A DNA stretch of 64,000 nt from Geodermatophilus obscurus. GTDB taxonomy: Bacteria > Actinomycetota > Actinomycetes > Mycobacteriales > Geodermatophilaceae. Position numbers and translations under genes: made by a program. A model generated the notes under the pieces. That model did no database searches and was not told the origin of the DNA. It saw only the letters and a program-made list of their open reading frames with translations. The stretch is taken from contig NZ_FRDM01000014.1 of the NCBI RefSeq assembly GCF_900143215.1, positions 1-64,000 of the forward strand. Reading direction: 5' to 3'. This document shows positions 41,921 through 45,700 of the stretch, one piece after another (the first letter of the stretch is position 1; every line of letters starts with the position of its first letter).

Positions 41921-42590
41921 GTGGCGCAGCGTAGGCCGCCGTCCGGCCCGTCCACGAGCCGTGGACGGCGATGTGGAGAGCTGTGGACCCGATCGGGGGA
42001 CCCCTGGTGAGCCGGAGTCGCGCCTGTGGAGAGGCCGGCGCGTCGGGTCCTCGCGGCGCCGGCCGCCGCGGCATCGCCCCGGATGCGGGTCAGGGCTCCG
42101 GATGACGCCACGTCGCAGCACGTCGCGCTGCGTGACGGCAGAACTGATCGGCACCGCCCCGCGATCCTGGTGCTTGCTCCGGACGGGGGACGAACAGCGA
42201 CCTCTCCGGCGCAGTCCGCCGGACGACGCTCCGTCCCGCGGTCCGGGGCTGCCGCTCCCGCCGGACACGTCGGTCCGCGGGCGCTCGCACCGCTCCTGTC
42301 CGTGGACGTGAGCCGGTCCGTTGGGGGAGGTGGGCAGGGGGCCCGTGCTCGCCGTACCCGCCCTCCTCCTCGGCCCTGCTGCCGCTCCTGGTTGCAGACC
42401 TGGAAGCGCTGGGTCGGTTCGGAACAGCAGCGATCCGCGCAGGACAGGGGTGACCGCGCTCGGTCCAGAGTCCGGGATCCCTGCACGAGCCGGGACATCT
42501 TCGCCTGATGAGGGCGAGCGAGGGCGTCCCGGCTCCTGAGCGGTGGCCGGTCCGGGAGTGGTCCGAGTGCCGGCCTCGGTGGCGGGCCTT
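41921..42590. other. Gene-poor stretch
   Basis: About 670 bases in which several overlapping frames stay open on both strands, as is common at high GC. None has a family motif or a convincing start. I see no gene here. Confidence 0.6.
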
Positions 42591-42591
42591 T

Positions 42592-42654
42592 AACCGATAC
42601 GGGGAACCGATACGGGGAACCGATACGGGGAACCGATACGGGGAACCGATACGG
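42592..42654 (+). repeat. 13-bp tandem repeats (iteron-like)
   Basis: AACCGATACGGGG occurs four times without gaps at 42592, 42605, 42618 and 42631, and a fifth, truncated unit starts at 42644. Copies are identical. The unit is not a multiple of three and no gene covers it. It may be a binding-site array; a short plasmid-like iteron array is another reading. Confidence 0.9.
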
Positions 42655-42689
42655 ACCAGCCGTCCGCCCGATGCACCACGCGTCCCTCG

Positions 42690-42740
42690 TGTCACCCCAT
42701 AGCGTGACAGTACGCCTACTTATCGTCACCTTCTGTGACG
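42690..42740. promoter_or_regulatory. Two GTCAC/GTGAC inverted repeats
   Basis: TGTCAC (42690-42695) pairs with GTGACA (42704-42709), and CGTCAC (42724-42729) pairs with GTGACG (42735-42740). They lie upstream of the small cistron at 42.9 kb. TAGCGT at 42700-42705, inside the first repeat, could be a -10. Likely regulator sites. Confidence 0.45.
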
Positions 42741-42781
42741 GCATGACGAATCGCGACCCTGCTGTAATCCGCGTGGCGGAT

Positions 42782-42859
42782 CGGACGCTTGCCCCGAAAG
42801 AGTGACGGGCAGCAATCTCTCAGGCGCGGTCCGTACCCAACGCTCTGCCCCCGCGCCTG
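42782..42859 (+). ncRNA. Structured leader RNA, possible riboswitch
   Basis: CGGAC (42782) can pair with GTCCG (42829-42833), enclosing a TGCCC/GGGCA stem (42790/42807). AGAG in that stem's loop can pair with CTCT at 42817-42820. CAGGCGCG (42821-42828) can instead pair perfectly with CGCGCCTG (42852-42859), which would break the first stem. The segment AATCTCTCAGGC resembles the 3' core of glycine aptamers, but the rest does not match, so no class is assigned. Confidence 0.35.
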
Positions 42860-42906
42860 GACGACTGCCATACGTGTTTGCAGTTCTTCAAGCCTGAGGA
42901 GGCGTC

Positions 42907-43011
42907 ATGAGTGTTATCCAGTCTTCCGTTCAGTCCCGTGGCAGCCGGTGGAACCGTGGTAGCCGGTGGAACCGCGGCAGCCGGTGGAACCGCGGTAGCC
43001 GCTGGAACTGA
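42907..43011 (+). CDS. 34-residue peptide with four RGSRWN repeats
   Basis: ATG at 42907 with GAGGAGG five bases upstream, stop TGA. Residues 1-10 are MSVIQSSVQS; residues 11-34 are RGSRWN four times. The 18-base units (from 42937, 42955, 42973 and 42991) differ only at third codon positions, all synonymous, which argues for selection on the peptide. It is strongly basic (eight Arg) with four Trp. Codons such as AGT, GTT and TCT are unusual for this genome. Its own leader and terminator make it a free-standing cistron. Function unknown: leader peptide, antimicrobial or modified peptide are guesses. Confidence 0.7.
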   Translation: MSVIQSSVQSRGSRWNRGSRWNRGSRWNRGSRWN

Positions 43012-43028
43012 GCTGCCGTCCCGTAGCG

Positions 43029-43053
43029 GTAGCGGGTCACTGACGCCCGCTAC
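43029..43053 (+). terminator. Hairpin after the RGSRWN gene
   Basis: GTAGCGGG pairs with CCCGCTAC across a nine-base loop, starting 18 bases after the stop; CCCCTTT follows. Separates the small gene from the GGDEF-EAL gene. TAGCCT at 43108-43113 is a candidate -10 for the latter. Confidence 0.65.
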
Positions 43054-43153
43054 CCCTTTCGGGTGCCCGGGACCGGTCGCGCAGGCCGAGGGAGAGGTCA
43101 TCGGCTGTTAGCCTCTCGCCGCACGTCTCCTCCCCCCAATCCCCGAGGACCGG

Positions 43154-45700
43154 GTGACCGTGGCCGAACTCGATCCGAGCGCGCCCGCGCGGTGGTCGGC
43201 GTTCCGCCAGCCATCTGTCGTGGCCGCCGGCGTCATCACGATGGCGCTGCCCTTCGTCGCCTACCTGCTGAGCGAAGCGATCAGCTCTGTGCGGCCGTGG
43301 GTGGTGGTGGCGTTCTTCGTCGCGTTCATCGTGGCCGAGTCCCTCACGCTTGCCGTCGAGATCCGCTCGCACACCATCGCCTGCTCCGTCGGTGAGGTGG
43401 TGCTGGTCGTCTCGCTCGTGGAGATGAGCGGCGCATGGACCGCGCTGGCGTACGCCGGGGCCATGTGGGCGATCAGCATCCGCGATCGCATCCCGGTCGC
43501 GAAGACCCTCACCAACGTCGCGATGTACATCATCCAGGTAGGCGTCGCCGTGGTCCTGCTGGACCGCCTGCCCGTCGGTCCGCTCGACGACCCGGTGACG
43601 TGGCTCTGTTACCTCGTTGCGGTCATCGCGGCGACGGCGGTGGGCACGGTGATCGTGGTAGCTGCGATCGCCATCACCCAGGGCGACCCCGGCCGGGCGA
43701 TGCTGACCCGGCTCTTCGCCCCCGTGCTCGTCGTCTATCCGCTGTCGACGGTCATCGGACTCGCCGCCTCGCTGATGGTCGACCGGACCGCTTGGGCCTG
43801 GCTCCTCCTGCTCCCCGTTCTCCTCGCGCTGGCTCTGCTCTACCGGCGCTTCGCCCGGGTGACCCGCGAGAGCGAGCGCCTGGAGAGGGTCTACGAGTTC
43901 GCCCGCCGCGTGGAACAGGTCGGTGCGGACGAGGACGGTACGAGGCGGATCGTCGAGGCGGTCAAGGAGTTGCTGAACGCCGAGCGTGTGGCGCTCTGGC
44001 TACCGCCGTACCTGGACGAAGAGCCATGTCTGGTCGTCGCCTCGGACGACGGCCGCAGCTGGTACGACGGCCCGAGCGACCCTGACGATCTGTTCCGTCG
44101 GCGGGCCACCGAAGGTGCACACGACGGTCCGCTGCTGGTCTCCCCCGCTCGAGCGACCGAGGCCGAGGCTGCGGCTCTCGAACGCCGCGGTGCCCACGAC
44201 CTGCTCGCCGCACCGGTGGCCACCGCCGCGGGAGAGCCCGGCTATCTGGAGATCTGCGACCGCCGCAGTGACGTCGTCTGGTTCTCCGACGGCGACCGGT
44301 CGGCGCTGGACTCCATGCTCACCCACGTCAACGCCGCGATCCGGCAGCAGCAACTGCTGACCCAGATCCGGTACGACGCCGACCACGACCGGCTCACCGG
44401 CCTGCCCAACCGGCAGCGCCTCGCGGTGGAGATCGACGAACTGCTCGCGGCCGACCCGGTCGCCGGGCGCGCGGGCCTCATCCTGGCCTCGCTGGACAAC
44501 TACGCCGAAGTCACCGACACGCTCGGCCACGCGGCCAGCGACGAGCTGCTGCTGGTCACCGCCGGCCTGCTGCGCGAGCACGCCCCGCCGCAGGCGCTCG
44601 TGGCCCGCATGGAGGGTGAGCAGTTCGCCGTCCTGCTCCCCGGGCTGTCGCTGCCCGCGACCGAGCGGGCCGCCCGCCGGCTGCGCGAGGCCACCTCGAC
44701 TCGCGTCCGGGTCGCCGGCCTGGACCTCGAGGTGACGCTGACCATCGGCGTCGCCGCCGCCCCGGTGCACGGCGCGGACTCCGGCACGCTCATGCAGCGG
44801 GCCGACGTCGCCCTGCTGGCCGGGGCCGGCAAGAGCGGCGTGGCCAGCTACCACCCGGTGCTCGACCAGCAGAGCCTGCGCCGCCTGCAGCTCGGCACCG
44901 AGCTCGAGCAGGCCATGGCCGACGGCGACATCAGCGTCGTCTTCCAGCCGATCATCGACGCCCGCACCTCCGACATCGTCTCGGTCGAGACGCTGGTGCG
45001 CTGGGCGCACCCGCGCTACGGGGCGATCGCGCCGGACGAGTTCATCCACCTCGCGGAGCAGATCGGCCGGATCGGTCCGCTGACCGACTACGTGCTCGAC
45101 CTCGCGCTGGCCCGCTGTCGCCGCTGGCTGGACCGGGACATCGCGCTGTCGGTGGCGGTCAACCTCTCCGCCCGCTGCCTGACCGAGCCGGACCTGGTGG
45201 ACCGGGTGCGCCGGGCGCTGCGCCGCCACGGCGTCCCCGGGGAGCTGCTGACCCTGGAGATCACCGAGGGCAGCGTCGTCGACGACTCGGTGCGCAGCAG
45301 CACCGTCCTGGCCGACCTGCACGCCCTGGGCCTGCGGCTGTCGATGGACGACTTCGGCACCGGCTACTCCTCGCTGTCCCAGCTGCGCCAGCTGCCCATC
45401 GACGAGGTGAAGATCGACAAGTCCTTCGTGCTGGGCATGTCGACCAGCCAGGGGGAGTCGTTCATCGCCCGCTCGATCATCGAGCTGGCCCACAACCTGG
45501 GCTTGCGGGTGGTGGCCGAGGGTGTCGAGGACGAGCTGACGCGCAACCTGCTCGCCGAGATGGGCTGCGACAAGCTGCAGGGCTTCCTGGTCAGCCGACC
45601 GCTGCCCGACCAGCGGCTGGAGAGCTGGATCCTGGCCCGCACCGGCGTCCGCTCGGCCGTCGCCGGCACGCCGCACCGGCGGCTGTTCGTGCGCTCCTGA
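43154..45700 (+). CDS. Membrane GGDEF-EAL protein, probable c-di-GMP phosphodiesterase
   Basis: 848 residues. About seven helices (20-235), a GAF-like sensor region (about 250-400), a GGDEF domain and an EAL domain. The GGDEF site is MEGEQ at 486-490, so cyclase activity is probably lost. The EAL domain looks active: ETLVRW at 612, NLSARC, LEITEG, MDDFGTGYSSLSQLR near 731, KIDKSFV and VAEGVED. It would hydrolyse c-di-GMP in response to a membrane or GAF signal. GTG at 43154. Confidence 0.9.
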   Translation: MTVAELDPSAPARWSAFRQPSVVAAGVITMALPFVAYLLSEAISSVRPWVVVAFFVAFIVAESLTLAVEIRSHTIACSVGEVVLVVSLVEMSGAWTALAYAGAMWAISIRDRIPVAKTLTNVAMYIIQVGVAVVLLDRLPVGPLDDPVTWLCYLVAVIAATAVGTVIVVAAIAITQGDPGRAMLTRLFAPVLVVYPLSTVIGLAASLMVDRTAWAWLLLLPVLLALALLYRRFARVTRESERLERVYEFARRVEQVGADEDGTRRIVEAVKELLNAERVALWLPPYLDEEPCLVVASDDGRSWYDGPSDPDDLFRRRATEGAHDGPLLVSPARATEAEAAALERRGAHDLLAAPVATAAGEPGYLEICDRRSDVVWFSDGDRSALDSMLTHVNAAIRQQQLLTQIRYDADHDRLTGLPNRQRLAVEIDELLAADPVAGRAGLILASLDNYAEVTDTLGHAASDELLLVTAGLLREHAPPQALVARMEGEQFAVLLPGLSLPATERAARRLREATSTRVRVAGLDLEVTLTIGVAAAPVHGADSGTLMQRADVALLAGAGKSGVASYHPVLDQQSLRRLQLGTELEQAMADGDISVVFQPIIDARTSDIVSVETLVRWAHPRYGAIAPDEFIHLAEQIGRIGPLTDYVLDLALARCRRWLDRDIALSVAVNLSARCLTEPDLVDRVRRALRRHGVPGELLTLEITEGSVVDDSVRSSTVLADLHALGLRLSMDDFGTGYSSLSQLRQLPIDEVKIDKSFVLGMSTSQGESFIARSIIELAHNLGLRVVAEGVEDELTRNLLAEMGCDKLQGFLVSRPLPDQRLESWILARTGVRSAVAGTPHRRLFVRS

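Follow-up and report, generated by a model that had tools for sequence, protein, structure and literature searches.

In a 64,000-nucleotide (nt) stretch of the Geodermatophilus obscurus genome (contig NZ_FRDM01000014.1, positions 1 to 64,000, hereafter the window), a 34-codon open reading frame (ORF) running from ATG to TGA, with the translation MSVIQSSVQSRGSRWNRGSRWNRGSRWNRGSRWN, is, by sequence comparison, a genuine free-standing gene whose short product consists of identical hexapeptide units, each bearing one tryptophan (Trp). This repeat peptide is probably a partner, and then most plausibly the ligand, of an S-component-like membrane sensor that is encoded directly downstream and would steer the turnover of cyclic di-GMP (c-di-GMP). 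The initial annotation of the locus described a strong ribosome site, four exact RGSRWN repeats and a basic, Trp-rich product, and the sequence is as it claimed, with a Shine-Dalgarno-like GAGGAGG (42896–42902) placed 4 nt 5′ of the ATG. It also placed the peptide in no known family: Pfam and NCBIfam gave zero matches, and no relative was found among 5.8 billion proteins when the longest family member (42 residues) served as query. Similar repeats elsewhere in the window's own genome were limited to weak matches.

The four 18-base units in the window vary at unit positions 3, 6 and 12 only, all of them synonymous third codon positions, from which the initial annotation had concluded that the peptide is selected. 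The selection is supported, yet the weight is carried by relatives; the window alone is suggestive, because three variable sites would all be third positions by chance in about 1 of 27 cases. Among 101 related genes with at least two units (one further gene, L149, has a single unit and was excluded from the unit statistics), 296 of 317 same-gene unit pairs encode the same amino acids, and same-gene units differ by 531 synonymous versus 56 non-synonymous nucleotide changes, where mutation alone predicts about four non-synonymous changes per synonymous one. Over unit positions 2–6, 95/101 genes scored as uniform, with 61 different unit types; two of the six genes scored as mixed (L139, L143) were mis-registered and are uniform by eye, which leaves L025, L085, L090 and L130. 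By this comparison the small gene belongs to an unannotated gene family under coding selection, free-standing as first described.

Uniformity within genes goes together with rapid change between species. In a codon-conditioned comparison (93 of 102 genes, restricted to unit pairs that agree in residue at positions 1, 2 and 4), none of 296 same-gene pairs differs at positions 3 or 6, including 19 pairs in which codons 1, 2 and 4 are all synonymously different. Between nearest-relative genes (median leader identity 0.91), position 3 differs in 27% of 98 pairs, 41% of 183 and 38% of 157 at zero, one and two synonymous differences, respectively, and in 0 of 18 pairs at three; only 26 of 93 nearest-relative pairs have an identical unit in common. 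Units identical at the DNA level were found in 9/93 genes, eight of which have two units only, and serine codons of the TCN and AGY types are mixed at one unit position in four genes. The best explanation of this pattern would be that repeats duplicate and that strong selection then keeps the units uniform; the synonymous differences might themselves be favoured, stabilising the repeat.

The family is confined largely to the Geodermatophilaceae. A protein search recovered the ORF in most of 26 genomes of the genus, and in 26/26 when the upstream region, conserved even more than the ORF, was used as a guide. With a cutoff of E ≤ 0.01, a sequence model of the leader matched 102 of the 112 family genomes; 101 matches are strong (E ≤ 3.1e-9) and span nine of twelve genera, and the single weak one is G069 (E 0.004). 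Nine of the 11 family genomes without a strong match are all the genomes of three small-genome genera (g5, g6, g7), and the other two are 70–80% complete. In the order sample, 76 of 397 genomes matched at E ≤ 1e-4, namely 75 Geodermatophilaceae and one other at 9.2e-5. A wider home for the leader was rejected: the 16/396 genomes matched in the phylum sample at E ≤ 0.01 are the window's own and 15 with partial matches (2.6e-4 to 0.009), judged to be noise. The 80 loci listed in a scan with organism names belong to Geodermatophilus, Blastococcus, Modestobacter, Klenkia, Trujillonella or unspecified Geodermatophilaceae with two exceptions, one filed as Bacillus sp. in a record marked unverified (L202), the other from Kocuria dechangensis, whose sequence holds no leader beyond the core.

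Behind 102 leader copies a short ORF lies in the same place, and 101 of these have at least two Trp residues six positions apart. Two units were counted in 35 genes, three in 42, four in 21 and five in 3; one genome (G062) has two leader copies, each with a Trp-repeat ORF (L090, L093). Most units follow R-x-x-[KR]-W-[GSTN]. Across the first units of the 101 genes, position 1 is Arg in 92, position 2 mostly Gly (77), position 3 any of 14 residues, position 4 Lys (57) or Arg (37), position 5 Trp without exception, and position 6 Gly, Ser, Thr or Asn in 95.

The small gene is predicted to form its own transcription unit. The conserved upstream block is most likely a promoter, because TTG-N3 and [CG]ANNNT hexamers stand 17 or 18 nt apart in 101/102 copies (17 nt in 56, 18 nt in 45), compared with 7% of base-shuffled segments. 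The leader that would follow has a nearly invariant core in the family and a median length of 84 nt. The 85 nt 3′ of the stop codon fold better than shuffled sequences (mean z −3.0 in 68 relatives; z < −1.5 in 66%), consistent with a terminator, and a -10-like motif, G[CT]TA[GA][CA][CT]T, stands between the small gene and the next in 78/102 relatives. The leader and terminator ascribed to the gene initially are thus retained as predictions from conservation.

This arrangement bears on two readings in which the peptide is secondary. The initial annotation had offered a Trp/Arg-codon leader peptide, and an attenuator of this kind, in which translation of the small ORF controls the GGDEF-EAL gene in cis, would suit its constant position, the start codon lying ~210–450 nt 5′ of the first matched part of that gene. 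It is nevertheless disfavoured because the small gene has its own predicted promoter and terminator: the strong hairpin is 3′ of the ORF and the next gene, which is no amino-acid operon, has a separate -10-like motif. Furthermore, Arg and Lys exchange at unit position 4, units keep their amino-acid identity where codons differ, and subtilase tails occupy the same place elsewhere (see below), which makes the attenuator very unlikely. Alternatively, the leader RNA could be the functional element, as a riboswitch or regulatory RNA, an idea that draws on the almost invariant core, on two second leader copies found before other small membrane-protein ORFs, and on six pairs of the genus consensus fold with compensatory changes in at least one sequence. 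Against this, the leader carries no folding signal (mean z +0.11 in 68 relatives; control coding stretches −0.67), Rfam returned nothing up to E 1 in 42300–43300 and four tRNAs only at gathering scores in the whole window, and the consensus fold for the family is weak (−5.5 kcal/mol, genus −23.2), with covariation scores dominated by clades; a structured leader was accordingly rejected. Peptides of the same kind also occur without this leader in another genus, and a role of the RNA as the primary element appears extremely improbable, although the leader may still regulate the gene.

The fixed neighbour of the small gene is a GAF-GGDEF-EAL gene, present downstream in 101/102 relatives, the sole exception being at a contig end. 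The neighbours scanned encode DUF520, Tad-like and GAF-GGDEF-EAL proteins, with tRNA-Tyr between; the DNA fetched around 98 genes includes Tad in 51 cases and DUF520 is found in many, so the wider gene order is partly conserved. Residues ~20–240 of the GAF-GGDEF-EAL protein form a membrane sensor domain whose structure model (predicted local distance difference test score 85) suggests an S-component-like fold. The model appears to resemble the S-components of energy-coupling factor (ECF) transporters, namely the metal type (4m5b, NikM2), RibU (5kbw), FolT and ThiT, at 6–13% identity, and unlike these the sensor domain is fused to GAF-GGDEF-EAL or kinase output. A sensor profile built from the window protein and its relatives has one match in the window's genome at E ≤ 0.001, the GAF-GGDEF-EAL protein itself. 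Among leader-less family genomes, G067 has two sensor genes with different upstream ORFs, (RNGRWG)3 and (RAGRWG)3, and G072 encodes an EGVSWN-repeat protein whose N-terminus is hydrophobic; a protein search with this exported EGVSWN protein returned one protein, 99% identical. At the family loci surveyed alongside, no small Trp-repeat ORF was seen other than at L246, L248 and L255, subtilase tails not having been searched there; L247 and L249 were read as coding and uninformative.

Beyond the Geodermatophilaceae, other families of the order also have Trp-motif peptides beside this sensor. Homologues of the GAF-GGDEF-EAL neighbour there (35–41% identity, n = 54) yielded 38 fetched upstream regions, from which L312 (wrong coordinates) and L313 (a family paralogue) were dropped. 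By eye, a small Trp-motif ORF is located upstream in 31/38 regions (21/21 in one genus, 10/17 in the rest), mostly with a hydrophobic N-terminus and with ends such as DIVWT, DVVWG (twice), LEFEWN, GSSWT and (DGNTWTFV)5. A fixed criterion that considered the first start codon only gave 11/38, compared with 0/38 reverse complements and 1/380 shuffles, and a looser one that considered all starts, set after the first-start result was known, gave 26/39 (reverse complements 2/39, shuffles 2/390); an earlier version of the survey had placed 36 of 70 loci, with 7/31 positive. At class level, a homologue search hit 33/148 genomes at 1e-98 and the own genome only at 1e-145. The survey of other orders kept 23 of 29 class loci (L339–L367), without L343 (of the order itself), L346, L352, L353 and L366 (less than 350 nt upstream) and L367 (poor start). 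The first-start criterion here gave 4/24, including one locus belonging to the order (controls 0/24 and 0/240), and the all-starts criterion 6/23 (controls 0/23 and 2/230).

In these orders the Trp units are frequently part of a protease gene. A subtilase tail holding 6 or more Trp within 30 residues lies upstream in 8/23 loci (reverse complements 0/23), and four further loci have a small Trp-repeat peptide, for a total of 12/23. The eight tails, three of them from one genus, and the tail upstream of the family paralogue L313 belong to Peptidase_S8 by Pfam; the same 6-in-30 test within the order was positive at 1/40 loci versus no controls, the one being L313. A density test at 4 Trp in 30 residues was discarded as too noisy (order 17/39 versus 7/39 controls, class 14/24 versus 8/24). 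At two loci, L316 (G565) and L347 (G173), the Trp peptide is replaced by a small protein with a hydrophobic N-terminus and Leu repeats, (NGGSL)n or (GASLT)n, which makes them Leu-type variants of this arrangement.

The association also appears when the repeats rather than the sensor are the starting point. A DNA pattern of six Trp codons spaced every 15 nt was run over 118 class genomes; it is unspecific, its reversed control often matching too, and 11 coding-like arrays were picked by eye among the matches listed, from five genomes, three of one genus. All ten array ORFs scanned are subtilases. Two arrays (L399, L406) stop at contig ends, and of the nine with downstream sequence eight are followed closely by the sensor domain (E 3e-10 to 9e-43), fused to a histidine kinase in L398, L400, L402 and L404 and to GGDEF-EAL in L405 and L408. 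Because the six outputs assigned are histidine kinase or GGDEF-EAL, the Trp repeat goes with the sensor domain and not with one output domain at these loci. The likeness to tails of actinobacterial S8 peptidases was borne out in searches: a Motilibacter-type tail retrieved 19 proteins, 15 with PF00082, three with PF20032 and one without a domain. The PF20032 proteins (P0004, P0008, P0018) carry this domain instead of S8 beside the tail match, a further protein context. Peptidase_S8 (PF00082) tails, such as that of a Motilibacter S8 family serine peptidase (GLRWN), are built of tandem pentapeptides G-x-x-W-[NST] or close to it, and the small genes share with them tandem short units of the G-x-x-W-[NSTG] type and the position directly upstream of a sensor-domain gene. 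Unlike the subtilases, the small gene encodes no protease domain (no Pfam match) and no export signal, and its unit has six residues with Arg at the border.

We then asked how unit and sensor diverge. Unit differences among 98 genes were set against distances of the sensor (residues 20–240), the rest of the protein (260–440), the leader, synonymous sites and the Tad protein, with units shuffled only inside clades in 200 permutations at two cluster cuts (8 and 20 clusters; values below in this order). The partial correlation of unit with sensor amino acids, given the rest, the leader and both synonymous distances, is 0.44 and 0.52, reached by 0/200 permutations each (permuted means 0.00 and 0.16). 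With sensor amino acids controlled for, the synonymous distance of the sensor yields 0.02 and −0.07; sensor third-position distance with sensor amino acids uncontrolled yields 0.27 and 0.34 (0/200), the rest of the protein 0.15 (2/200) and −0.07, and the Tad protein −0.03 and −0.04 (51 genes). All sensor segments contribute, the strongest single residues being T65 and A61 by the hairpin, plus R186 and R181. Unit divergence thus tracks the amino-acid divergence of the sensor, not that of the Tad neighbour, which speaks against hitch-hiking by recombination.

The same data weigh on the idea of an independent cationic peptide that binds nucleic acids or membranes, possibly antimicrobial, and keeps its place by inherited gene order. 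Units rich in Arg, Lys and Trp fit such a generic binder, as does the partly conserved wider gene order, but in further families and orders, and amid dissimilar proteins, peptides with Trp motifs are again found upstream of this sensor, and many of these peptides are not basic (DIVWT, EFEWN, GSSWT). Unit divergence moreover follows the sensor, and a generic binder has no need of uniform units that change between species; we regard it as unlikely.

In the interpretation that we favour, a ligand-like partnership with the sensor, the peptide or its units would bind the membrane sensor domain of the downstream GAF-GGDEF-EAL protein, and the bound sensor would shift c-di-GMP synthesis or breakdown in one direction or the other. 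Lacking a signal sequence, the peptide might act on the cytosolic face of the sensor or reach it through some export route. The gene, its coding selection, the fixed neighbour, the recurrence beside the same sensor and the co-divergence are drawn from comparison, whereas promoter, terminator and sensor fold are predictions. The weakest point of the partnership is that the Geodermatophilaceae peptides have no hydrophobic N-terminus, and there is the worry that the sensor is possibly just a better clock in the co-divergence test.

A related reading treats the units as cores of a modified or processed peptide, a pheromone or a ribosomally synthesized and post-translationally modified peptide (RiPP), that is released outside and perceived by the sensor as receptor. 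Multi-core RiPP and tandem peptide-pheromone precursors carry several identical units of species-specific sequence in one short gene, and the small genes resemble them in this, with Arg at most unit borders and with hydrophobic N-termini, possible signal peptides, in the other families. The small gene differs from such precursors in having no known core motif; the three neighbours scanned, to which the search was limited, also include no modification enzyme, transporter, protease or other gene for maturation or export. The Geodermatophilaceae peptides, as said, start without a hydrophobic stretch, and the single sensor in the window's genome fails to separate self-sensing from other roles. We consider processed cores of this type decidedly unlikely.

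More tentatively, and with somewhat less than even confidence, we propose that in Actinobacteria short Trp-unit peptides, whether free-standing, exported or subtilase tails, may be dedicated ligands of S-component-fold sensors driving c-di-GMP turnover or histidine kinases, and that unit and sensor co-evolve species by species in Geodermatophilaceae while same-gene units stay identical. Judged from search results alone, literature searches returned no account of this peptide-sensor system, and we rate it as apparently new in kind because neither the Pfam and NCBIfam comparisons of the peptide, the Rfam comparison of the leader, the protein search nor the literature searches yielded anything alike. 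If true, a set of orphan actinobacterial sensors through which c-di-GMP or two-component signalling is controlled would gain a ligand class, and the function of the Trp-repeat tails found on some S8 peptidases would be explained. Peptide-receptor co-evolution could then also be studied in a natural setting, a suitable one because unit sequences differ between close species and can be synthesised and compared. A conserved 34-codon gene of most family genomes had escaped the protein collections searched.

Features of the small-gene locus (positions in the window)
Feature	Position	Strand	Basis
Second, decayed promoter-leader copy without Trp-repeat ORF, ~620 bases upstream of the main copy	42170..42259	+	E 1.4e-7
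Predicted promoter of the small gene: -35 TTGCCC (42789–42794), 18-nt spacer holding GAGTGAC, -10 CAATCT (42813–42818)	42789..42818	+	Conserved layout
5′ untranslated leader, ~82 nt from the inferred start, core GCGGTCCGTACC...CGCTCTGCCCCCGCG, including Shine-Dalgarno GAGGAGG	42825..42906	+	Leader model, alignments
Small gene, MSVIQSSVQS followed by four RGSRWN units	42907..43011	+	Sequence and comparison with relatives
GC-rich hairpin GGTAGCGGG...CCCGCTACC, probable terminator	43028..43054	+	Sequence; fold statistics of relatives
TGTTAGCCT, -10-like motif of the next gene	43106..43114	+	Conservation
GAF-GGDEF-EAL gene, GTG start at 43154 or 43160	43154..45700	+	Pfam

Several further features of the region were recorded. 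Many relatives have several GTGAC/GTCAC boxes within ~95 nt 5′ of the -35 element (~42690–42788 in the window), which resemble MtrA or CRP-like sites and may point to a regulator of the small gene. Besides the copy in the window, second leader copies are present in three relatives; two of these (L022, reverse complement 753–877, and L160, reverse complement 1659–1750, in genomes G001 and G006) are positioned shortly 5′ of ORFs for membrane proteins of 70–77 residues that contain long hydrophobic segments, which looks as though a different gene had taken over the leader. A perfect 13-base tandem repeat, AACCGATACGGGG, in 4.8 copies (42592–42654) lies between the two leader copies of the window, and positions 1–100 hold a 33-base tandem repeat in three copies with a 98% match.
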